DNA of 64,000 nucleotides from the NCBI RefSeq assembly GCF_000238775.2, contig NZ_AFEJ02000001.1, positions 2,294,001 through 2,358,000 of the forward strand, read 5' to 3'. The position numbers and the translations under genes were made by a program. Numbering within the stretch: position 1 is the first letter of the stretch; each line of letters opens with the position of its first letter. The notes below the pieces were generated by a model, which was not told the origin of the DNA, ran no database searches, and saw only the letters and a program-made list of their open reading frames with translations. This DNA is from Acaryochloris sp. CCMEE 5410 (GTDB lineage: Bacteria; Cyanobacteriota; Cyanobacteriia; Thermosynechococcales; Thermosynechococcaceae). Below, piece by piece: positions 6,878 through 48,051 of the stretch.

Positions 6878-7177
6878 TTAATAGCTCTTCCCAGATTTTT
6901 TAGCAGCACAAGGGTCTTTAGCAGCGCAGGGATTCTTAGCTGCACAGGGGTCTTTAGCGGCACAGGGATCTTTAGCGGCACAGGGATCTTTAGCGGCACA
7001 AGGATTCTTGGCAGCACAGGGATCTTTAGCGGCACAAGGATTCTTGGCTGCACAGGGATTATCTACGGCAGCAGCGCAAGGATTAGCATGGGTTGGGGGA
7101 GAAAGGAGAGTTGTTGTGGCGACCCCAACGGTCAACATAGAGGTAGAGGCCAGTAATGCTAAATATTTGACTTTCAT
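6878..7177 (-). CDS. Secreted low-complexity protein with (N/D)PCAAK hexapeptide repeats
   Basis: The 99-residue product starts with a clear signal peptide (MKVKYLALLASTSMLTVGVA, cleavage near THA-NPC). One degenerate unit (NPCAAAVD) is followed by nine perfect tandem units of N/D-P-C-A-A-K, and the protein ends in KSGKSY. Each unit has one Cys and one Lys, so the exported chain has ten evenly spaced cysteines. This could serve metal binding or disulfide or other cross-linking at the cell surface; that is inference. The start at 7177 has GGAG eight bases upstream; the frame extends seven codons further without a better site. The 18 bp DNA units lie at about 6900-7080 and are prone to copy-number change. 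Confidence 0.7.
   Translation of the reverse strand: MKVKYLALLASTSMLTVGVATTTLLSPPTHANPCAAAVDNPCAAKNPCAAKDPCAAKNPCAAKDPCAAKDPCAAKDPCAAKNPCAAKDPCAAKKSGKSY
6900..7080. repeat. Tandem 18 bp repeat coding for (N/D)PCAAK
   Basis: About nine full 18 bp units of the type GGCAGCACAGGGATCTTT occur head to tail inside the secreted-protein gene. Differences between units are mostly at third codon positions and at the first base of the Asn/Asp codon. Such arrays change length by slippage or recombination. Confidence 0.8.
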
Positions 7178-7416
7178 ACATAGAACTCCAGAAATCAATG
7201 GGTCGGTTCAAAACCTACTCTTAAATAGTTAAAAGAAGTTGAATAAGGGTAGCCTGAAGACTAAATGAGTTTTTATGAGAAATATATGAGTTTTTCTAGA
7301 GATATTTCAGTGATTAAAAATGACTCGTTAGGTTGACACCATTGTTTTAGGCTTTCATCTCACCGAGATGAAATTTATGGCGATCCGCTTCCCGTCAAGA
7401 CTGTAATAGATTTATT

Positions 7417-32604: not shown

Positions 32605-34329
32605 CTACTGTGTCTCCAGTTCACTCATGGGTAAAAGCAGGCTTGATAGGATCTCTTCGCGAGTTGCTTTTGCGACATAGCAATCACTATTAAGACATTC
32701 AGCCAACAATTTGTTGGCATTAAAATACTGTCTTAGCTTGTCGGTTTGAATAGTGGTGAACTGCCAATCATGACCTATATTGCGATGGTTCACCATCACT
32801 GCCCGCAAATTTTCTGTCCATAATTTTCCCGCAGTTTTCCACCAACTGGTGAATGCTTTACTATTTTGGCCATCAGGTATTTGAGACTTTAAGCTTTTCA
32901 ATTGAATACTAGTTTCAGGATCATTCCTTTTTAGTAATTCGATTTTGGCCAGTCGGTCGAGGGCGAAGACGAGGGCGCTGGCGCTATCGAGGGAGAAAGA
33001 GAGATTACTAGCAATAGCAAGGTTGAGATTGAGGGCAAGGTCAAGGGCAAGGTCACTGGCGCTGGCGAGAGCAAGGTTGCTGGCACAGGCAAGGTCATTG
33101 GCAAGGACGCTGGCGAGATCGAGATCACTAGCGCTAGCAATAGCAAGAGCGAGGTTGCTGGCGCTAGCACGAGCGAGGGAGAGAGTATGGTTGAAGGTAA
33201 GTTCGAGGTCGAGGGCAAGGTCGCTAACGCTGGCGCTGGCGCTGGCAAGGTCGAGGTCACTGGCGTTAGCAAAGGCGAGGTTGTTGGCGCTGGCAAGGGC
33301 AAGAGCAAGGGCGAGGTAAAAAGCTCGAATTGCTTCTGATTTATGGTCAGCTTTGACAGATCGAGCTTTTACACGAACCCAAGCCAGAAAATCTTGTAGT
33401 TCAGGCTCATCAGCAATGAACCGATCAGTTTTGCTTTTGAGCAATCTGAAAAACTCATCGGCTTCAGGCAATATCCCCACAACCAGGAAAAAAACCTCTC
33501 TATAACGTTTTTCAAAACAATGCTTAACAAGATTTTCTAGGGTTATAGAGAGCTTAGACGTTGGACTAGTAATTTGTTTGGCCGTGAAATATTCGTGAAA
33601 TGTCAAATGCGAGAAAGAATAAATTCCCCGCGCACGTTCCACCAAAAGACCATGTTGGGCTTCAATAGATTTGAGTACAGCTTCGCTATCCAGTTGTAGG
33701 GCTTCTTCATCTTCATTAGCACCCTGTAAATTACGGATATATTCGATTATTTTCGTTTCCACAACTTGCTGTTTGAAGAAGTAGTCCCCTTGCTCAAAAG
33801 TTTGATAAGCTAATTGACTTAGCAGATCTTCCTTCCGCTTCAGTGACAGTTTTTTATAGACTTGATCTCGCTCAATATTACGTTTGGCATCCCATTTCTT
33901 CAGCAGAACATCTAACCCCTCTTTATAAAGTTCTGATCGATTATGGGGAAAATCGTTAGCTTCACCAAATACCAAACACAGCAACGTTAATAAGAGTGGA
34001 TTAGTTGCTAGCTCTTGAATTGGCTTGTTATCTTGCAACTGTTTGATGAAATTTTTGCCCTTTTCATTATCTTTCTTAGTTCGAAACCATTTCTTAGCAA
34101 AGTCTCTTATTTGTTCCTCATTAAAATCAGCAATTTCCACTTCAGTAAACTGCTCAAAGGTATATTCACGGGCAGCAATCCGACAGGTCATTACACATTG
34201 GCAATCACGGAACTCTTCCGTAAAAACCTTTATTAAATTCAGCACTCGATTATGATCTTTAGTCTGCACTTCATCCAGACCATCCAGTAAAACTAAAACA
34301 TGTCCATCCTTTAATACTGGGGTAAGATC
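32605..34329 (-). pseudogene. NACHT NTPase, C-terminal part (after the ISAs1 insertion)
   Basis: This piece continues the gene that starts at 36243. It begins at the insertion point with the Walker B/sensor stretch HVLVLLDGLDEVQTKDHNRV, then the NACHT core (FRDCQCVMTCRIAAREYTFE, then IQELATNPLLLTLLCLVFGE) and a winged-helix part (GLLVERARGIYSFSHLTFHE). A helical spacer follows, then a strongly biased repeat region (about 32950-33320) made of short Ala/Ser/Leu/Asn/Asp units, and a final unique domain (FTSWWKTAGKLWTENLRAVM). The usual start in this fragment (34269) is not a natural start. STAND NTPases of this type act as sensors, some in phage defence. Confidence 0.88.
32950..33320 (-). repeat. 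Low-complexity coding repeat in the NACHT gene
   Basis: About 120 residues consist of irregular repeats of the type A-S-A-S-D-L-A-L (for example DLDLASASASVSDLALDLEL and NLALASASDLALDLALNLNL). DNA repeats are of the form CTGGCGCTGGCAAGG with variations. The regular Leu spacing of about five to six residues suggests a solenoid similar to pentapeptide repeats, possibly the sensing part of this STAND protein. The opposite strand is also open (Ala/Arg-rich), which is a by-product of composition. Confidence 0.75.
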
Positions 34330-35495
34330 CAGGGTTGTTTTACGTTCCTCCTAGAAAAAATAGGATGGTTCTACTGACCAACAGTAGAGAGACCGATGAG
34401 CCATCTAATCGATACTTTGAAGCAAGTCCCGGATTTCCGCAGTGCCCATGGCCGTATTCATCCGTTATGGCTGCTGTTGCTATTGATGGTGATGGGCATG
34501 CTTGCTGGATATCAAGGGTACCGTCCGTTAGAAACCTTTGTGAGCGATTATCGCCAGCCTTTAAGTGAGCTATTGGGGCTTGAGAGCCTCGAAGTTCCGT
34601 CTCACTGTACCTTTCGTCGAGTGATGAAGGGGCTTGACTTCCAAGCGTTGAGCCACCAATTTGAAGCATGGATGCTCTCGAAAGCCCAGACTCACTCTCC
34701 CGATAATTATGCAGCCTCCATTGATGGCAAACGGATTCGTCAGGGGCTGACAGATGCCAAGGGGAAGCAGCGTTTTGTAGGGTTGGTGAGTTTATTTGCG
34801 GTGGAAGCAGGCATCACCCTCAAGCTCGAAGCCCTCACTCAGGAGGATAATAGCGAAATCAAAGTCGTCCAGGCACTGTTGGAAACCCTTCAACTCGATG
34901 GCTTGCTGATTACCATGGATGCCTTACACGCCCAAAAAAACACTTGAGAAGATTGTGGCCTCGGGTAACGACTATCTTGTGGCGGTCAAATCCAATCAGG
35001 GAAGACTTTACGACCACCTCCAGACTTACTTTGAGTGTCTTAAACCCATGGCTGAGCACATCCACTCCGCCCAAAGTAGAGGACGAGATGAACATCGGTG
35101 TATACAGGTTTATGAGCCTGTCGGCATAGCCCTACAAGAATGGGAGGCAATTCGCTCTGTGCTTTGTGTCCAACGATGGGGCACTCGCAAAGGAAAGGAG
35201 TATCACAATACGGCCTATTACATCAGTTCAGCTGCCACCTCACCCCAGCATTGGCAATCTCTGGTCCGAGAACATTGGGGCATTGAAAATCGGTTGCATT
35301 GGCCGAAGGATGTTGTTTTTGGCGAAGATGATTATCGACTCGAAGATGAACAAGCACTGCTCAATTGGTCAGTGCTTAGAACTATTGGGATTAATATCCT
35401 GCGGCTAAACGACTATCAATCCCTCAAAACCGCGATGACTAAGCTGGCTAATCGGGTCGATATTATTTTTTCGCTGCTAACTTAAAACAGCCCTG
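34330..35495 (+). mobile_element. ISAs1-family insertion sequence inside the NACHT gene
   Basis: 1166 bp, with inverted ends CAGGGTTGTTTTACG at 34330 and CAGGGCTGTTTTAAG read inwards from 35495. The 10 bp GGGTAAGATC is present on both sides (34320-34329 and 35496-35505), a duplication length known for ISAs1. Removing the element and one duplication restores an open frame of about 820 codons for the NACHT protein, so the insertion is the only lesion seen there. The transposase is itself frameshifted. Confidence 0.93.
34396..35485 (+). pseudogene. ISAs1-family transposase in two frames
   Basis: The first frame (34396-34947) has the N-terminal DDE_Tnp_1-associated domain (VPDFRSAHGRIHPLWLLLLL, then VPSHCTFRRVMKGLDFQALS) and the start of the DDE core (AASIDGKRIRQGLTDAKGKQ, LLITMDALHAQKN). 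At an A7 run (34934-34940) the frame changes: the next frame continues with KTLEKIVASGNDYLVAVKSN and reaches SLVREHWGIENRLHWPKDVV with the terminal Glu, ending at 35485. One extra A, or two missing, explains the shift. Transcriptional slippage on A7 could restore a full protein of about 363 residues, so the element may not be dead. Confidence 0.86.
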
Positions 35496-36243
35496 GGGTA
35501 AGATCGGCTTCATTAACTTCACAAGCTTTCCATTGCTGAGAAATATAGCTTTGCAAATCGGGTTTATCTGCTGATTCAGCTAACTCTTTCAAAGTGACAA
35601 ACACAGGAATCCGATGGGATTCAAACTCTCCTTGATTGCATTGGGTCGCCAACCGTTTCATAAAAGTGGTTTTGCCCGCTCCCGGCTTCCCCAAGATCAT
35701 CAGCTTGTTATAGCGTGAAACCGCTTCTAATCCTGGCACTCTCTCAACACGTATCTGCCCCAGCATTAAGCGATCAAAGTTGTTAATGTTACAGTCTTGC
35801 CATAGCTCTTCAACCCCTAGACGTTGCCTTCCAGACAGTTTCTCCAAAATATTGACGCGGGTATAAATCTCACCAATTCCAATCGGTTGTTCCATATCCA
35901 GCACCCGCATCGTGCCACAGCGATTGTGAATATCAGCATTTACCTTTTGACGAATATCTTGAACAAGCGTACTGATATTAGTTGTAATTTGAGTCTTTTC
36001 AGTTATGCTTTGAGCAATCTCAACTCCTGCGACTTCTTCCCAATCAAGATCTAATGCTTTACAAAAACCGACAAACAGCTTTTTACTGACCTTCTTGCCT
36101 GAGCAAAAATTGATAGAAGGCTGGCGGCTACAATCACAATATTTCCAGAGATCATCTCTACTCCATTGCTTATTTGTTAAGGCTCGCTCAATTAATTCGA
36201 TGCTTTGCGGGGTTGCTGCTAGCGATTTCGCGGCCATGCTCAA
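35496..36243 (-). pseudogene. NACHT NTPase, N-terminal part (before the ISAs1 insertion)
   Basis: This is the 5' piece of a STAND NTPase. Residues 1-75 look like a helix-turn-helix-type effector-associated domain (SIELIERALTNKQWSRDDLW, then KKVSKKLFVGFCKALDLDWE). The NACHT domain follows with the P-loop LMILGKPGAGKTTFMKRLAT (around residue 185) and then IPVFVTLKELAESADKPDLQ. The frame runs into the insertion sequence and ends after a few foreign codons. With the C-terminal part (32605-34329) the intact protein would have about 820 residues. Bacterial NACHT proteins include antiphage sensors; here the gene is inactive unless the IS leaves precisely. Confidence 0.9.
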
Positions 36244-40800: not shown

Positions 40801-41037
40801 ATGCGTATGATCCTTGCGTCGTCACAATCAAAAACAATGAAATCACCTTAAACAAGATGACATTCATCTCTTCAGTTTAACGATTGCTTGACTGCATTGC
40901 TCTGCCGAGGAGAAGCAATCAATACTACTTCCCTTGAATGGATCAAGCTGAAAAAGGCTAACTCCATCGTCTTCAATCACTACATACACTATTGCCCAAT
41001 TGTCGATGAGCAGAATGCATCGATGACCGTTTCAGAA

Positions 41038-41328
41038 TTACTTGTAATTAAAATTGCCGACTACCGGAAAGTTGTATACCAAGTCGTCGCTAAGCAGGTA
41101 GTCATATCTATCAAAATCTAAATGGTGTTCAGTACTGCGAAAATAGTGACTATATTGATAAAAACCAGGTCCCGGATAATAGTTCGGATAGTACTGAGTT
41201 ACAGGGGAAAAGACGATCACTGGCACATCTTGACCAATGGGCACCCCAAAGAAAGACTGAGTCTGAGCCTGGGCGGGAAGAACACTCAACCCTGTGATAA
41301 CTGTCGTTAAAAATATCGTAGATTTCAT
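41038..41328 (-). CDS. Small exported protein, cassette A gene 4
   Basis: The 96-residue product has a signal peptide (MKSTIFLTTVITGLSVLPAQ, cleavage after AQA). The mature part is rich in Tyr, Phe and Pro (TQYYPNYYPGPGFYQYSHYF) and ends in DDLVYNFPVVGNFNYK. No family recognised. The start at 41328 has AGGAG eight bases upstream. The paralogue in cassette B differs by only a few residues (Val/Ile in the signal peptide, Arg/Lys in FDRYDY). Probably secreted or periplasmic. Confidence 0.75.
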   Translation of the reverse strand: MKSTIFLTTVITGLSVLPAQAQTQSFFGVPIGQDVPVIVFSPVTQYYPNYYPGPGFYQYSHYFRSTEHHLDFDRYDYLLSDDLVYNFPVVGNFNYK

Positions 41329-41510
41329 CGTTAAATCTCCTAGCAACAACTGCCTTGGAGTACTTTTCAAGACAAGATCGATAGGTCAGAACAGTGATTT
41401 TCCATAACGGCTCAACCAAGTGAGCACTCTCACAAGTGGCTGCAAGATCAACCACCTGTTTGTGTATGGACAATCCGCTCAATCCTTGTTGGGGCATACA
41501 CTATGTAAGC

Positions 41511-41889
41511 TTAAAAACTAAAATCGACAGTGTGGTCAACAGCGTAGTCCGAATAGTCATACGCTTCAAAAAGCCGAGTACGTTCAATTCTTCTGCGATG
41601 CCCCATTTCTACTGCCTGACTCTTAGCTGAGTTGATGTAGGTATAGGTTTGCTCTTGGGTCACACCATTCACTGTGGACGAAGAGCGGGTTGTTGTAAGC
41701 TCATCCGACGTATTGAGAGAAACACCAATGGACTGATCATCCTGGGTTTGTTGGCCTGTAATTTCTCTAATATGGCGTCCACCCGACGAGTTCTGAAACG
41801 TCATCACGTGCACTATCTGGGCATAACAAGGTGATGTACTGAAAACGGCATAGACTACAGCACCATAAAGTATTGGCTTCATCTGCATT
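41511..41889 (-). CDS. Small exported protein, cassette A gene 3
   Basis: The 125-residue product has a signal peptide (MQMKPILYGAVVYAVFSTSP, cleavage near CYA-QIV). The mature part is Thr/Ser/Gln-rich (SLNTSDELTTTRSSSTVNGV) and ends in RLFEAYDYSDYAVDHTVDFS plus a final Phe. This end resembles that of gene 1 of the cassette (ESYDFDGIDKTHTVGSSFSF), so the two proteins may be distant paralogues or share an export or assembly signal. GGAGGG seven bases upstream supports the start. No family recognised. Confidence 0.75.
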
Positions 41890-42148
41890 ACTTGCGCCCT
41901 CCAAAATCCTAATAAACTCACATAGCGTCGTAATAGTCCTGGCACTTCAACTAAGCTGAAGTCAATCTTGCTTGCAGCTCTTTACTCCAAACTAGAGATC
42001 ACGTTGGAGTTATGGACATAATTCAAGCCTCAACAGGAATGCATCTAGGTCGAAATCACTTTCGCCGGATCTATACAAGTGCAAGATTACTGAGCGACAC
42101 CCTTCGAGAATAAGTAGGCAACACACAGTGTTATCCTCTGAATCGACA

Positions 42149-42874
42149 TTAAAGCAACTCTTTAGCCGTCAATCGTTGAGGCCCTTGAACAGCAGGCAAC
42201 TCTGAAGTTGAGTTAGGTAATGCTGTCTTGAGTTGTGGTTCTACTGGAGATGGGGTCTGCGCTTGAGGTGGATTCTGTGGACTATTGCCATACTCTCGCA
42301 CCGTAGGCGTTGGAGCGGGTTGCTGCCCTTGTAATGCCGGACGATTCGAGGCAGAAGGAGAGGGCTGAGGAATCGCAGCTTGACGAACCGTTACAGGCGG
42401 ACAGTCAACATTAGCCACTTCCATCAGCGCTGTATAGCTGACATCAATACCTGCTTTAACCATTTTGGAATAGTTACTGATTAACAGAAAACAGGTTTCA
42501 AGCTTCGCTTTCCCTAATTGATTCTTGGCGTACTGCTTACAGGTATCCATCCCAAAAGAATGGGTATAGGTAATCGCACCTCCAACCGTACCGGTATCAA
42601 AGGGACCTACACCACTGCCATAGGCTGACACGCTTAAACCATTACTGGTACAGTCTGCTATGCCATTGCCAACAACACTGCGGCCTAAGGTTGTACTGTT
42701 GACCTGAGTATTTACTAATGAGCCCTGCTGATCAAGATTGACTTCAGGGTTAGCTGTTGATTGGGAGTTGTTAGGTACTGTGATGCTATTTGTCGTTTGG
42801 GCTAAAACTGAGCCAGATGACAATGTCAACATTCCCACAACCGATGTACTCAACAGCCCAAGACGATAACGCAT
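42149..42874 (-). CDS. Exported protein with Pro-rich tail, cassette A gene 2
   Basis: The 241-residue product has a signal peptide (MRYRLGLLSTSVVGMLTLSS, cleavage near LAQ). A Gln/Asn-rich linker follows, then a conserved core with four cysteines (IADCTSNGLSVSAYGSGVGP, FGMDTCKQYAKNQLGKAKLE with TCFLL, and NVDCPPVTVRQ), and a long Pro/Gln-rich tail. The start at 42874 has an AGGAG site. The copy in cassette B has an extra five residues (STPVS) in the tail. No family recognised; a periplasmic or surface accessory protein is my inference. Confidence 0.75.
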   Translation of the reverse strand: MRYRLGLLSTSVVGMLTLSSGSVLAQTTNSITVPNNSQSTANPEVNLDQQGSLVNTQVNSTTLGRSVVGNGIADCTSNGLSVSAYGSGVGPFDTGTVGGAITYTHSFGMDTCKQYAKNQLGKAKLETCFLLISNYSKMVKAGIDVSYTALMEVANVDCPPVTVRQAAIPQPSPSASNRPALQGQQPAPTPTVREYGNSPQNPPQAQTPSPVEPQLKTALPNSTSELPAVQGPQRLTAKELL

Positions 42875-42899
42875 GATTGATTCTCCTGAGCTGAGCAAA

Positions 42900-42924
42900 G
42901 GGGCAACAGCTTAGCTGCTGCCCC
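42900..42924 (-). terminator. Hairpin between genes 1 and 2 of cassette A
   Basis: On the minus strand GGGGCAGCAGC-TAA-GCTGTTGCCCC forms an 11 bp stem (one G-U) with a 3-base loop, followed by TTTGCTC. The U run is short, so it may act as a partial terminator or as an mRNA-stabilising end that makes gene 1 more abundant than genes 2-4. The same hairpin is present in cassette B at 46678-46702. Confidence 0.7.
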
Positions 42925-42962
42925 TTGTTTGTTTGGCTTAGATATGAAGCAGCTAGCTTGAT

Positions 42963-43412
42963 TTAGAAGCTGAAGCTAGAGCCAACGGTGTGAGTCTTGT
43001 CGATGCCATCAAAGTCATAGCTCTCATAGACATGAACGTTGGTGTCTTTTGTAAATAAACCGGATTCTCTTGACCAGCTAGAAGACTTGGCAACAGAGTA
43101 ATCCGTTTCAGAGAATAATCCGTTGTAAGTCGTTGTGGACTTACGGCAATTGCGTCCACAGTACTTAGTTTGAGTCGTAGCACTACCGTCTTTAGTAGTG
43201 GTAACACCGACAGATACCTTGCTGGCATCAGCTCCAGCAGAACGAATACCGCCGTACCACTCATTAACATTAATACTGGTGTGAGAATAACCATTCTTGA
43301 TATCACGAATGGAGAAGCTGTTGGAAACACTAGCAGAACCTGCAAAGGCAGGAGCAGCAGCTAAACCCAAGAAAAGTGCAGAGCAAAGGGGTAGAAGGCG
43401 TTGAGCTTTCAT
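42963..43412 (-). CDS. Exported protein, cassette A gene 1 (probable major product)
   Basis: The 149-residue product has a classic signal peptide (MKAQRLLPLCSALFLGLAAA, cleavage at AFA-GSA). The mature protein is rich in Ser, Thr, Gly, Asp and Tyr, with a single Cys pair (YCGRNCRK), and ends in ESYDFDGIDKTHTVGSSFSF. The C-terminal aromatic is typical of proteins handled by outer-membrane machinery, though no beta-barrel is evident. A ribosome binding site (GAGG) precedes ATG 43412. It is first in the unit and followed by a hairpin, which suggests high expression. The B copy differs mainly in a central block around the Cys pair. Function unknown. Confidence 0.75.
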   Translation of the reverse strand: MKAQRLLPLCSALFLGLAAAPAFAGSASVSNSFSIRDIKNGYSHTSINVNEWYGGIRSAGADASKVSVGVTTTKDGSATTQTKYCGRNCRKSTTTYNGLFSETDYSVAKSSSWSRESGLFTKDTNVHVYESYDFDGIDKTHTVGSSFSF

Positions 43413-43506
43413 ATTAAACCTCACTAAGGTGAATAAATTTTTAGAGATCAAAGCAATCGGGGCTGCACACCGACAAAATAGGCAATCATCCCTGCTTAGT
43501 TTCATT

Positions 43507-43551
43507 CAAATATTTGAGAAGCAGTTCATCACAACGCTTCAAATATTTGAT
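43507..43551. promoter_or_regulatory. Paired palindromes TCAAATATTTGA upstream of cassette A
   Basis: Two perfect 12 bp palindromes TCAAATATTTGA lie at 43507-43518 and 43540-43551, 33 bp centre to centre (about three helical turns), some 95-140 bp upstream of gene 1. Both are conserved in cassette B (47284-47295 and 47317-47328). They look like operators for a dimeric regulator that binds cooperatively; the regulator is unknown. Confidence 0.6.
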
Positions 43552-43853
43552 AAACAAGCAAAAGAAACAAAGAAAACTCATGACTCTTTTATTTCTTTCT
43601 AGATTGTTTAGTCAGGAATGATTGGGCCTACAGCTACTAAACACTGTAATTACAATAACCACTCTGAGAAGATTCTCAGGATTCTCTAAGTATTCCTTAA
43701 GTGAATAAAAAGATGCTTATATTTTATTGTTTTCAGAAATAATAATGATATGATAATAAGTTTTATCTTAAAATTTATTAGAGTAAAAATACTTTTAATG
43801 ACCTAATTATAACCATCAATTACCATGTAATGCAACCCACAAAATATGACTTT

Positions 43854-44858
43854 CAATCAATAAAATACATGAGTTATCTCAGGCTCACAACTCCTGAAAT
43901 ACCTACAACACAAAGAGAAGGCATTGATTGTTGACGAAAAGATTGCATGAAGAAAATTAAAATAGAGAGCACAAAAAGACCTAGAGACCCACTATAACTG
44001 ACACAATCTGACGAGATAATTTTATTTTAGCCTCTAAAAATTATTGATCATCACTTGATACCTTTCTAGTCGTTCAAGCTATCTAAAAAGTTCATTCTAG
44101 TGAAGCGTCAATGAACCTTCTTCAATAACAATCACATCTAGCTGCATAAACTTGAAAAGTGAAAATTAGGCCGAGCCATAAAAATTGAACCACACACAAC
44201 GTCGCCCATGATCTGCACCTACTGAGGCATCGTAAAGTGCTTGATCTACAGGGTGACCAACCTATCTAACACTCTATGCCTTACCCACAAGTGGATTAAA
44301 CGCATATGCAGAAGCATTTTTGGTGCTAAGACAAATGTTTCAGTATCCCGTAGATTGGCCTTTTCCATAGCATCGTCAACGACAGAATAGGGGTTCAACC
44401 TCCTCGCCGTGCCCACTAGGCATTCTCTGGGGCAAAGAATAAGGGGGGTTAGCTCACCTCAAGTCTTTTGCTGGTAAGTACTTCAGGACTTGTGGGTAAG
44501 GCATAGATCTAACACTATTATGGGCAGAAAGCGCAGTAGCTCCATATCAATTACTGATCGTGATCGAGAAATAAGCGCGATCGTTACGTCACCAGAAATA
44601 TCTTGCACTGTTGAGATACAGCAACTATTGAGGCTATCGTTCCTTATGATTCTGCAAGTCAAATGGTTTTCTTAAAAAATTGAAAGCAAAAAGCGCTCGC
44701 AATAACGAGCGCTAGTCATAATGCTTAGAATAACTGAAAACTTTTAGGCTGCCGCCCACTTTCTTAAAGCATCTATTTATAAGAAGACTGAGGCCATCCA
44801 ACCCTCACTACCTGCAATCGCTGGATACAAGGGATTGGCGGATACCATAAATCTACAG
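43854..44858. other. Intercassette region
   Basis: About 1 kb without a supported gene. The first 240 bp are a diverged counterpart of 47633-47875. The rest contains the 233 bp MITE at 44274-44506. A 61-codon open frame at 44490-44675 begins in the MITE end and is not credible. The end (44690-44860) contains nothing I recognise. Confidence 0.6.
44274..44506. mobile_element. MITE, 233 bp, 19 bp perfect terminal repeats, 10 bp duplication
   Basis: CTATGCCTTACCCACAAGT (44274-44292) and its exact reverse complement (44488-44506) bound a short non-coding element. ATCTAACACT is present on both sides (44264-44273 and 44507-44516). Perfect 19 bp terminal repeats, a 10 bp target duplication and the absence of a coding frame define a MITE-type non-autonomous element. 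None of the autonomous elements in this window has the same ends. A related end occurs near 6059-6084. Confidence 0.9.
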
Positions 44859-44869
44859 CCGTTTCAGAA

Positions 44870-45160
44870 TTACTTGTAATTAAAATTGCCGACTACGGGA
44901 AAGTTGTATACCAAGTCGTCACTGAGCAGGTAGTCATATTTATCAAAGTCTAAATGGTGTTCTGTGCTTCGAAAATAGTGACTATATTGGTAAAAACCAG
45001 GTCCCGGATAATAGTTCGGATAGTACTGAGTCACCGGGGAAAAGACGATCACTGGCACATCTTGACCAATGGGCACCCCAAAGAAAGACTGAGTCTGAGC
45101 CTGGGCAGGTAGAATACTCAACCCTGTGATAACTGTCGTTAAAAATATCGTAGATTTCAT
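44870..45160 (-). CDS. Small exported protein, cassette B gene 4
   Basis: Paralogue of 41038-41328, 96 residues, with a signal peptide (MKSTIFLTTVITGLSILPAQ). The mature sequence is almost the same, with Lys in place of Arg in FDKYDY. AGGAG precedes the start. The few changes between the copies are conservative, so both copies seem to be kept functional or homogenised by gene conversion. Confidence 0.75.
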   Translation of the reverse strand: MKSTIFLTTVITGLSILPAQAQTQSFFGVPIGQDVPVIVFSPVTQYYPNYYPGPGFYQYSHYFRSTEHHLDFDKYDYLLSDDLVYNFPVVGNFNYK

Positions 45161-45314
45161 CGTTAAATCTCCTAGCAACAACTGTCCTGGAGTAGGGTTT
45201 TCAGAAAACACTGAAGGGTTAGAAGAGTGATCTTCCCTAGCAGCTCGCTGAGGTCAGCACACTGAATCGCCATAGATGTAGAGACTATTGGGTATCCAGG
45301 CAGTCAACTAGCAC

Positions 45315-45692
45315 TTAAAAACTAAAATCGACAGTGTGGTCAACAGCGTAGTCTGAATAGTCATACGCTTCAAAAAGCCGAGTACGTTCAATTCTTCTGC
45401 GATGCCCCGTTTCTACTGCCTGACTCTTAGCTGAGTTGATATAGGTATAGGTTTGCTCTTGGGTTACACCATTCACTGTGGACGAAGAACGGGTTGTTGT
45501 ACGCTCATCCGACGTATTGAGAGAAACACCAATGGACTGATCATCCTGGGTTTGTTGGCCTGTAATTTCTCTAATATGGCGTCCACCCGACGAGTTCTGA
45601 AACGTCATCACGTGCACTATCTGGGCATAGCAAGGTGATGTACTGAAAACGGCATAGGCCACAGCACCATAAAGTGTTAGTTTCAGTTGCAT
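45315..45692 (-). CDS. Small exported protein, cassette B gene 3
   Basis: Paralogue of 41511-41889, 125 residues. The signal peptide differs at several positions (MQLKLTLYGAVAYAVFSTSP), while the mature part differs at only two (Arg for Leu in DERTTTR, Thr for Met in AVETGHR). GGAGGG lies eight bases before ATG 45692; a TTG one codon earlier also opens the frame. It has the same C-terminal end as copy A. Confidence 0.75.
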   Translation of the reverse strand: MQLKLTLYGAVAYAVFSTSPCYAQIVHVMTFQNSSGGRHIREITGQQTQDDQSIGVSLNTSDERTTTRSSSTVNGVTQEQTYTYINSAKSQAVETGHRRRIERTRLFEAYDYSDYAVDHTVDFSF

Positions 45693-45911
45693 CAATCATG
45701 CCCTCCTTATTCGGGGTGCCTGTCCGAGACATTTCAATCCCGGGAGCTGAAGTCAGTCATATATGGCTGGCTTAATCACAGACTATAAAAGTCTTTCTTT
45801 AGCGCTGGAAATACTATCAAGCCAGAAATTCACAGCAATGCTTTTTGGTCTGATTAGGTCACAACAGAGAATCAAAGTAGGCAACACACAGTGTTATCCC
45901 CTGAATCGACA

Positions 45912-46652
45912 TTAAAGCAACTCTTTAGCCGTCAATCGTTGAGGCCCTTGAACAGCAGGCAACTCCGAAGCTGAGTTAGGTAATGCTGTCTTGAGTTGTG
46001 GCTCCGATGGGGATGGGGTCTGCGCTTGAGGTGGATTCTGTGGACTATTGCCATACTCTCGCACCGTAGGCGTTGGAGCGGGTTGCTGCCCTTGCAATGA
46101 AACCGGAGTCGATGCTGGACGATTCGAGGCAGAAGGAGAGGGCTGAGGAATCGCAGCTTGACGAACTGTCACAGGTGGACAGTCAACATTAGCCACTTCC
46201 ATCAGCGCTGTATAGCTGACATCAATACCTGCTTTAACCATTTTGGAATAGTTACTGATTAATAAAAAACAGGTTTCAAGCTTCGCTTTCCCTAATTGAT
46301 TCTTGGCGTACTGCTTACAGGTATCCATCCCAAAAGAATGGGTATAGGTAATCGCACCTCCAACCGTACCGGTATCAAAGGGACCTACACCACTACCATA
46401 GGCTGACACGCTTAAACCATTACTGGTACAGTCTGCTATGCCATTGCCAACAACACTGCGGCCTAAGGTTGTACTGTTGACCTGAGTATTTACTAATGAG
46501 CCCTGCTGATCAAGGCTGACTTCAGGGTTAGCTGTTGATTGGGAGTTGTTAGGTACTGTGATGTTATTTGTCGTTTGGGCTAAAACTGAGCCAGATGACA
46601 ATGTCAACATTCCCACAACCGATGTACTCAACAGCCCAAGACGATAACGCAT
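45912..46652 (-). CDS. Exported protein with Pro-rich tail, cassette B gene 2
   Basis: Paralogue of 42149-42874, 246 residues, with the same signal peptide (MRYRLGLLSTSVVGMLTLSS) and Cys-containing core. Differences are a five-residue insertion (STPVS) in the Pro-rich tail and scattered changes such as Ser for Asn in PEVSLDQ. An AGGAG site precedes ATG 46652. Confidence 0.75.
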   Translation of the reverse strand: MRYRLGLLSTSVVGMLTLSSGSVLAQTTNNITVPNNSQSTANPEVSLDQQGSLVNTQVNSTTLGRSVVGNGIADCTSNGLSVSAYGSGVGPFDTGTVGGAITYTHSFGMDTCKQYAKNQLGKAKLETCFLLISNYSKMVKAGIDVSYTALMEVANVDCPPVTVRQAAIPQPSPSASNRPASTPVSLQGQQPAPTPTVREYGNSPQNPPQAQTPSPSEPQLKTALPNSASELPAVQGPQRLTAKELL

Positions 46653-46677
46653 GATTAATTCTCCTGAGCTGAGCAAA

Positions 46678-46702
46678 GGGGCAACAGCTTAGCTGCTGCC
46701 CC
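46678..46702 (-). terminator. Hairpin between genes 1 and 2 of cassette B
   Basis: Identical to the cassette A hairpin at 42900-42924: 11 bp stem, 3-base loop, short U run on the minus strand. Its exact conservation fits a functional attenuator or terminator after the first gene. Confidence 0.7.
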
Positions 46703-46740
46703 TTGTTTGTTTGGCTTAGATATGAAGCAGCTAGCTTGAT

Positions 46741-47190
46741 TTAGAAGCTGAAGCTAGAGCCAACGGTGTGAGTCTTGTCGATGCCATCAAAGTGATAGCT
46801 CTCATGAACATGAACGTTAGTGTCTTTTTTGAATGCACCGTACTCTTTGGACCAGCTAGAAGAAGTGGCAACAGAGTAATCTGTTTCAGAAAATAGGCCG
46901 TTGTTTGTAGTCGTAGACTTCTTACAACCCCAACCACAGTATTGAGTCTGAGTAGTCGTGCTACCGTCTTGGGTTGTGGTAACACCGACAGATACCTTGC
47001 TGGCATCAGCTCCAGCAGAACGAATACCGCCGTACCATTCTTTCACTTTAATATTGGTGTGAGAATAACCATTCTTGATATCACGAATGGAGAAGCTGTT
47101 GGAAACACTAGCAGAACCTGCAAAGGCAGGAGCAGCAGCTAAACCCAAGAAAAGAGCAGAGCAAAGGGGTAGAAGGCGTTGAGCTTTCAT
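46741..47190 (-). CDS. Exported protein, cassette B gene 1 (probable major product)
   Basis: Paralogue of 42963-43412, 149 residues, with an identical signal peptide (MKAQRLLPLCSALFLGLAAA). The first 45 mature residues and the last 15 are nearly unchanged. The middle differs, including the residues around the Cys pair (YCGWGCKK here, YCGRNCRK in copy A) and the following segment (SSSWSKEYGAFKKDTNVHVH). This concentration of changes in one block of the most exposed-looking gene suggests diversification. GAGG precedes ATG 47190. Confidence 0.75.
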   Translation of the reverse strand: MKAQRLLPLCSALFLGLAAAPAFAGSASVSNSFSIRDIKNGYSHTNIKVKEWYGGIRSAGADASKVSVGVTTTQDGSTTTQTQYCGWGCKKSTTTNNGLFSETDYSVATSSSWSKEYGAFKKDTNVHVHESYHFDGIDKTHTVGSSFSF

Positions 47191-47283
47191 ATTAAACCTC
47201 ACTAAGGTGAATAAATTTTTAGAGATCAAAGCAATCGGGGCTGCACACCAACAAAATAGGCAATCATTCCTGCTTAGTTTCAT

Positions 47284-47328
47284 TCAAATATTTGAGAAGC
47301 AGTTCATCACAACGCTTCAAATATTTGA
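47284..47328. promoter_or_regulatory. Paired palindromes TCAAATATTTGA upstream of cassette B
   Basis: TCAAATATTTGA occurs at 47284-47295 and 47317-47328, with the same spacing and position as in cassette A. The surrounding 440 bp non-coding block is almost identical between copies, whereas the spacers inside the cassettes are not. This supports a regulatory role or a recent conversion tract. Confidence 0.6.
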
Positions 47329-47632
47329 TAAACAAGCAAAAGAAACAAAGAAAACTCATGACTCTTTTATTTCTTTCTAGATTGTTTAGTCAGGAATGAT
47401 TGGGCCTACAGCTACTAAACACTGTAATTACAATAACCACTCTGAGAAGATTCTCAGGATTCTCTAAGTATTCCTTAAGTGAATAAAAAAGATGCTTATA
47501 TTTTATTGTTTTCAGAAATAATAATGATATGATAATAAGTTTTATCTTAAAATTTATTAGAGTAAAAATACTTTTAATGACCTAATTATAACCATCAATT
47601 ACCATGTAATGCAACCCACAAAATATGACTTT

Positions 47633-48051
47633 TACTCGTCAACATACAGAAGGTATTCCAGAAGAATTATCTCCAAAAAGCCTACAGTACCTAAGAGAAT
47701 ATATAAATTATTTCCTAAAAGATTATATGAAGAAAATTGAAATTCAGAACATAAAAAGACCTACGACCTCACCATAACTGACATGATATGACGAGGAAAT
47801 CATATTTTCTTCTCTAAAAGAAGTCTGCCGTAACTGGATACCTTTTAGTCGTTCAACCGACCTGAAAAGTTCTCGACTAAAGACGAATGTTGATATCCCT
47901 CTCCTGATCATTAGAGAGCGTCAATCCTAGCTATGGGGCTTGCTTGCATGACCTGCTTACGGTCACCTACCATAACGAGCTAAACTGCTGTCTATGGGCA
48001 AGCCGTTACTGTTCAATGGTTTGCGCGTTGTTCTCTTTGCCACCCAACCCC
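47633..48051. other. Region between cassette B and argB
   Basis: 419 bp. The part to about 47875 is a diverged counterpart of the sequence after copy A (shared stretches such as ATGAAGAAAATT and AGTCGTTCAA). An open frame joins argB from 47944, but the start of ArgB is placed at 48052. No other feature seen. Confidence 0.5.

Follow-up and report, generated by a model that had tools for sequence, protein, structure and literature searches.

Tandem cassettes of putative exported proteins in Acaryochloris include a remote homologue of an uncharacterised cyanophage protein

The closest known cassette to the one described here is carried by cyanophages. In Sullivan et al. (2010; PMC3037559), it appears as a "cluster of five hypothetical proteins", which corresponds in part to T4-GC 235, 236 and 237 (phrog_848/1755, phrog_650 and phrog_564, respectively). 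In phages P-HM1 and S-SM1, the genes occur in the order T4-GC 237-236-235, followed by T4-GC 234 and 218 on the opposite strand. Apart from the 2010 description, nothing on these proteins was found in the literature. By analogy, the closest characterised kind would be curli, a multi-gene set of small exported proteins with phage-borne versions in pelagiphages. Phage-borne examples have been described (PMC7029224, PMC9599517 and PMC9004378), and the pelagiphage operons of the first two reports set a precedent for phage-borne extracellular fibres.

The window analyzed comprises 64,000 nucleotides of Acaryochloris sp. CCMEE 5410 (contig NZ_AFEJ02000001.1, positions 2,294,001 to 2,358,000). Two tandem head-to-tail units, A (41038-43412) and B (44870-47190), are located on its minus strand, each with four genes in a fixed order, which encode proteins of 149 (g1), 241 or 246 (g2), 125 (g3) and 96 (g4) residues. 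Both units were found at the place and with the order and lengths that the initial annotation had given for its four-gene cassette. In a crude check by sequence, all four proteins have a basic, hydrophobic and AxA-like N-terminus, in agreement with the signal peptides predicted for them earlier. The features are as follows.

47191-47661, minus strand: unit B leader/promoter region, 97% identical to the unit A leader and 83% to that of Acaryochloris IP29b_bin.176
46741-47190, minus strand: unit B g1, putative exported and probably beta-rich protein of 149 residues, C-terminus SFSF (sequence and HMM)
46676-46704, minus strand: unit B hairpin with a 13-bp stem and a weak U-tract, located in spacer 1-2 (folding)
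45912-46652, minus strand: unit B g2, putative exported four-cysteine protein of 246 residues, remote homologue of phrog_1755/848
45315-45692, minus strand: unit B g3, putative exported protein of 125 residues, g1 paralogue
44870-45160, minus strand: unit B g4, putative exported protein of 96 residues
44692-44713, minus strand: terminator-like hairpin with U-tract, 3' of unit B (such sites occur at a chance-level number in the region)
43413-43882, minus strand: unit A leader/promoter region
42963-43412, minus strand: unit A g1, 149 residues
42898-42926, minus strand: unit A hairpin in spacer 1-2
42149-42874, minus strand: unit A g2, 241 residues
41511-41888, minus strand: unit A g3, 125 residues
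41038-41328, minus strand: unit A g4, 96 residues

Elsewhere in the window, an exported-looking protein (6878-7198) is made up largely of one short repeat, of the NPCAAK(N/D)P type. A NACHT-type NTPase-like gene (32605-36243, assigned by eye) is apparently interrupted by a transposase in two frames (34396-34947 and 34919-35485), a longer copy of which is present in another extracted locus (L108, 697-1587).

The earlier statement that the proteins belong to no assignable family was borne out by profile searches of Pfam, NCBIfam and PADLOC. None of the eight window proteins matched a Pfam family at E<=1; their searches against NCBIfam, PHROG, PADLOC and PDB sequences produced chance-level matches only, and the anti-phage defence profiles of PADLOC gave no match to them at E<=0.1. 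No curlin repeat was detected among the eight proteins (Pfam, E<=1) and CsgF (PF10614) had no match in the Acaryochloris genome at E<=1, while its one CsgG-family gene (C1:3916534, beside a trypsin-like protease) is situated about 1.6 Mb from the cassette (~2336000). Membership in curli was therefore rejected, the cassette differing from that system in its lack of curlin repeats, CsgF and a linked CsgG. That the proteins constitute a divergent curli-type functional amyloid (type VIII secretion) is likewise improbable: the pelagiphage precedent, an N/Q-rich segment of g2 with a QxG...N stretch and the CsgG-family protein encoded in the genome would speak for it, but the same absences count against it, and comparison with CsgB of HTVC008M yielded no convincing match (E=0.79).

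The role in fibres or surface layers suggested in the initial annotation, with g1 as main product, was not established, as no fibre family was matched and the AlphaFold models of g1 and of the g2 mature domain (14-16 sequences) were too weak, with pLDDT values of 48-52. In these models, g1 is predicted at low confidence to be beta-rich, and a helix is predicted in g2 at pLDDT 70-84.

Profile-profile comparison (hhalign) of g1 and g3 gave 98.7% over 131 columns, and the two proteins, as judged from their sequences, are homologous over their full length. The relationship suspected from a shared C-terminal pattern was thus upheld, the likeness being wider than the C-terminus. The g2 protein is composed of the N/Q-rich N-terminal segment and a domain with four conserved cysteines, which are likely to form disulfides. 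From the second cysteine to the conserved glycine there are 30 residues in the g2 proteins of Acaryochloris, of a second set of cyanobacteria (family f2, Synechococcus-like), in two of the Nostoc type and in those of T7-like phages, and exactly 7 more (37) in those of T4-like phages and of one distant cyanobacterium (G164). The third cysteine follows the second by 16 residues in the Acaryochloris type and elsewhere by 23, or by 30 in a longer form. Such heptad-sized shifts are as expected of a helix or coiled coil, which this part of g2 may form.

Units A and B share 89.3% (g1), 97.5% (g2), 96.3% (g3) and 95.2% (g4) identity, with dN/dS values of about 0.21, 0.12, 0.21 and 0.04, respectively, which are those of units under purifying selection. 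The proposal that only the coding sequences are conserved was rejected: the 470 bp 5' of g1 (97.2%) and spacer 1-2 (98.9%) match the genes in their conservation between units, and the leader is 83% conserved in Acaryochloris IP29b_bin.176 (L033). Spacers 2-3 and 3-4, originally called unrelated, are not wholly so, as the first ~45 nt of the former and the last ~100 nt of the latter align between the units, far above shuffles. The simplest reading is that the segment was duplicated recently and that blocks were replaced in two of the spacers. Since dS between the units depends on the gene (0.077 to 0.32), patchy gene conversion between them is possible. The duplication is recent in the lineage, because IP29b_bin.176 has only one unit at the corresponding position of its chromosome, flanked by argB and a Rossmann-fold (NmrA-like) gene, and because dS of the units to that copy (about 0.9-1.3) exceeds that between A and B (0.08-0.32).

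The existence of the hairpin that had been noticed 3' of g1 was confirmed (29 nt, 13 bp). It is near-identical in both units, and the 91-nt region containing it folds at -30.4 kcal/mol (z -3.35). However, its U-tract is weak, being UUU only, so that the hairpin is at best a weak terminator or RNA stabiliser.

The distribution of the cassette in cells was analyzed further. The 8.1-Mb Acaryochloris genome encodes a third, divergent unit (L006, 8013-10441) arranged 1-2-3-2b, 2b being a second g2. A search with g2 detected matches in 10 of 390 cyanobacterial genomes, all of one family. The taxa named in the genome scan were Acaryochloris, Acaryochloridaceae SU_2_1, Petrachloros, Lyngbya confervoides BDU141951, a Limnothrix MAG and Thermosynechococcaceae MS004. 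The general order in cells is g1 (one to three tandem copies), g2, g3 and then g4 or 2b; some lineages have g1-g2 only, and the order 1-2-3 is retained in the Acaryochloris relatives and in L. confervoides BDU141951. The linkage assumed at the outset thus recurs, with a fixed order in other genomes, and the genes were found neither unlinked nor absent in all relatives. The one to three tandem copies of g1 are as expected of a subunit. No dedicated exporter was linked to the cassette.

Beyond this family, the g1 profile gave weak matches in three distant cyanobacteria (G191, G382 and G164), each with a g2-like gene beside it, and comparison of these g1 proteins with the Acaryochloris type gave 94.8%. 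The distant g2-like proteins, used as queries, in turn led to four f2 genomes (2.4-3.0 Mb), which are probably picocyanobacteria, and to one further genome (G303). In the three distant cyanobacteria and in family f2, a g2-like gene with the identical Cys/Gly pattern adjoins secreted g1-like genes, as in Acaryochloris, but the gene order and the g1-type sequences are different, and the f2 operons are larger, with extra cysteine-containing secreted proteins. In nearly all cellular loci the g1-like gene adjoins the g2-like gene, the exceptions being contig ends or broken loci.

Several other genes were observed near these loci. Proteins with an AAA_35 domain, some of them with WD40 repeats, are encoded no more than a few kb away from several of the g1-g2 loci, in genomes of different genera (L006, 1-4649; L041, 706-2130; L042, 5243-6628; L078, 2220-5741); their adjacency is only suggestive of partners of the cassette, because the Acaryochloris genome contains 16 such matches. 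In one genome (G262; L091, 8866-11419), two near-alike tandem exported proteins of 392 residues follow the g2-like operon, and a similar 378-residue protein occupies the same position in locus L093. A further exported protein of 220-246 residues is encoded near the cassette in three genomes (L039, 6612-7274; L040, 27-767; L043, 9639-10364).

The connection between cells and phages was established through g2. One g2-like protein of family f2 matched phrog_1755 at 6.9e-9. A superfamily alignment of g2 sequences from phages, from f2 and of the Nostoc type, from which the Acaryochloris-type sequences were left out, matched Acaryochloris g2 in hhalign at 97% (E=1.2e-10, 145 columns). The independent HMM of this superfamily, run against 2492 ORFs that were in part redundant, recovered the g2 proteins of the Acaryochloris type, among them the two window copies at 1.5e-5 and 2.2e-4, ahead of any unrelated ORF, and no match other than g2 fell below E=1. 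By these intermediate profiles, g2 is a remote homologue, rather than a member, of the uncharacterised phrog_1755/phrog_848 (T4-GC 235). The link rests on intermediate sequences, since the phrog_1755 profile alone found nothing in the Acaryochloris genome at E<=1. Similarly, window g2 had no match in PHROG and none when plasmid and phage records were searched with it directly, and a scan of the viral contigs with the Acaryochloris-type alignment returned nothing; the phages were reached only through Nostoc-type and Synechococcus-type sequences. One cellular operon (that of G303) contains phrog_564 (two copies), phrog_650 and phrog_1755 together and bridges cells and phages.

Homology of g1 to the phage partners was looked for without success: hhalign probability of g1/g3 against phrog_650/564 was about 10%, no homology of g1 to phrog_650 or to the Synechococcus-type partners was detectable, and the comparison with the S-CAM7 partner was borderline (E=0.0069). 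The cyanophage cassette nevertheless resembles that of Acaryochloris in three respects, namely the remote homology of T4-GC 235 to g2, a secreted g1-like gene immediately 5' of T4-GC 235 on the same strand, and the mutual similarity of phrog_650 and phrog_564, as of g1 and g3. In contrast, g1 is not detectably homologous to phrog_650, and the phages add DUF6450 and phrog_570, where Acaryochloris adds g3 and g4 or 2b.

In phages the pair is common. The S-H38 protein (tblastn) had matches in phage records numbering at least 464, of which almost all were cyanophages. Related g2 proteins were also detected in Vibrio phages; a Vibrio-phage query found nothing in the viral contigs. Among 160 viral contigs sampled with two single phage protein queries, a secreted g1-like gene is beside g2 in 157, the contigs being interrelated and not 160 independent events. 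T7-like cyanophages have DUF6450, g1-like and g2 in this order beside the terminase genes, or close variants thereof. DUF6450 (phrog_721/2714), a small membrane protein, is near g2 in 75 of 80 T7-like and 38 of 80 T4-like contigs.

The lysis genes of T7 are likewise located next to its terminase genes. This arrangement, together with the frequency of DUF6450, would suit an envelope-breaching lysis module, in which g1 and g2 weaken the outer membrane or the wall, the phages employ them with a holin-like DUF6450 late in infection, and cells have kept or captured the pair. Such a role is rather unlikely: no lysis role is annotated for DUF6450, nothing in the Acaryochloris genome matches it above cutoff, the lipobox or membrane anchor that classical spanins have is missing from g1 and g2, and tandem amplification of g1 and purifying selection in cells would be odd for a lethal module.

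In some phages (Vibrio phage 431E46.1 and S-CAM7), the g1-g2 pair is near tail genes; shortly 3' of the pair, Synechococcus phage S-CAM7 also encodes a type IV pilin-like protein (L097, 6953-7384; GFTLIELMVVVAIVG). The proximity of tail genes would fit a virion component (fibre or decoration), of which the cellular copies were phage-derived remnants. This is very improbable, for the cellular units are intact, syntenic across species and under purifying selection, with no phage genes nearby, and T4-GC 235-237 bear no virion annotation in S-SM1. In that record T4-GC 969 and 112 are "virion structural" and T4-GC 235-237 "hypothetical", which weakly disfavours a virion role. The same annotations suggest, if indirectly, an action in the infected cell, as would be the case if the pair coated the surface or blocked receptors, used by phages against competitors (superinfection exclusion) and by cells against phages or grazers. 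The presence of the pair in most of the cyanophages sampled, across two unrelated morphologies, as well as in cells, is consistent with such masking, but there was no PADLOC match, and this explanation is doubtful.

Assembly at the surface is preferred here to a part in lysis or exclusion. The cassette may be a secreted envelope module with g1/g3 subunits and a g2 partner, an interpretation that we consider quite possible, if short of probable. In such a module, g1 and its paralogue g3 would be subunits, probably beta-rich, that have a conserved aromatic C-terminus, are exported by the Sec pathway and assemble at the outer membrane or cell surface. The g2 protein, with its N/Q-rich N-terminal segment and helix-containing four-cysteine domain, would be exported with them, dock onto the g1/g3 proteins and then anchor, cap or nucleate the assembly, while g4, or in some genomes the second g2 (2b), would have an accessory role. 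A structural subunit is favoured by the tandem amplification of g1, the existence of its paralogue g3 and the low-confidence beta-rich prediction; the predicted helix-containing four-cysteine domain of g2 favours an anchoring or capping partner. The phage copy would remodel the host envelope during infection. We tentatively make the broader proposal that cyanobacteria have a hitherto unrecognised secreted two-protein envelope system in common with most of the marine cyanophages sampled and with some Vibrio phages, that the phage version remodels the surface of the infected cell, and that Acaryochloris has three units of the cellular one.

The module is real, conserved and uncharacterised, and its proteins are predicted to be secreted. 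No homologue in any characterised system was found for them, and "new" here denotes the lack of a characterised relative, the function being inferred. Their only relatives are uncharacterised cyanobacterial proteins and the unexplained cassette of most sampled marine cyanophages. Marine cyanophages destroy a large part of the photosynthetic bacteria in the ocean. The question why almost all T4-like cyanophages have these "hypothetical" genes dates from 2010, and it is now directly testable by means of a cellular operon of few genes, for which expression in laboratory strains is feasible. One laboratory study could inform both the cyanobacterial cassette and the cyanophage gene.
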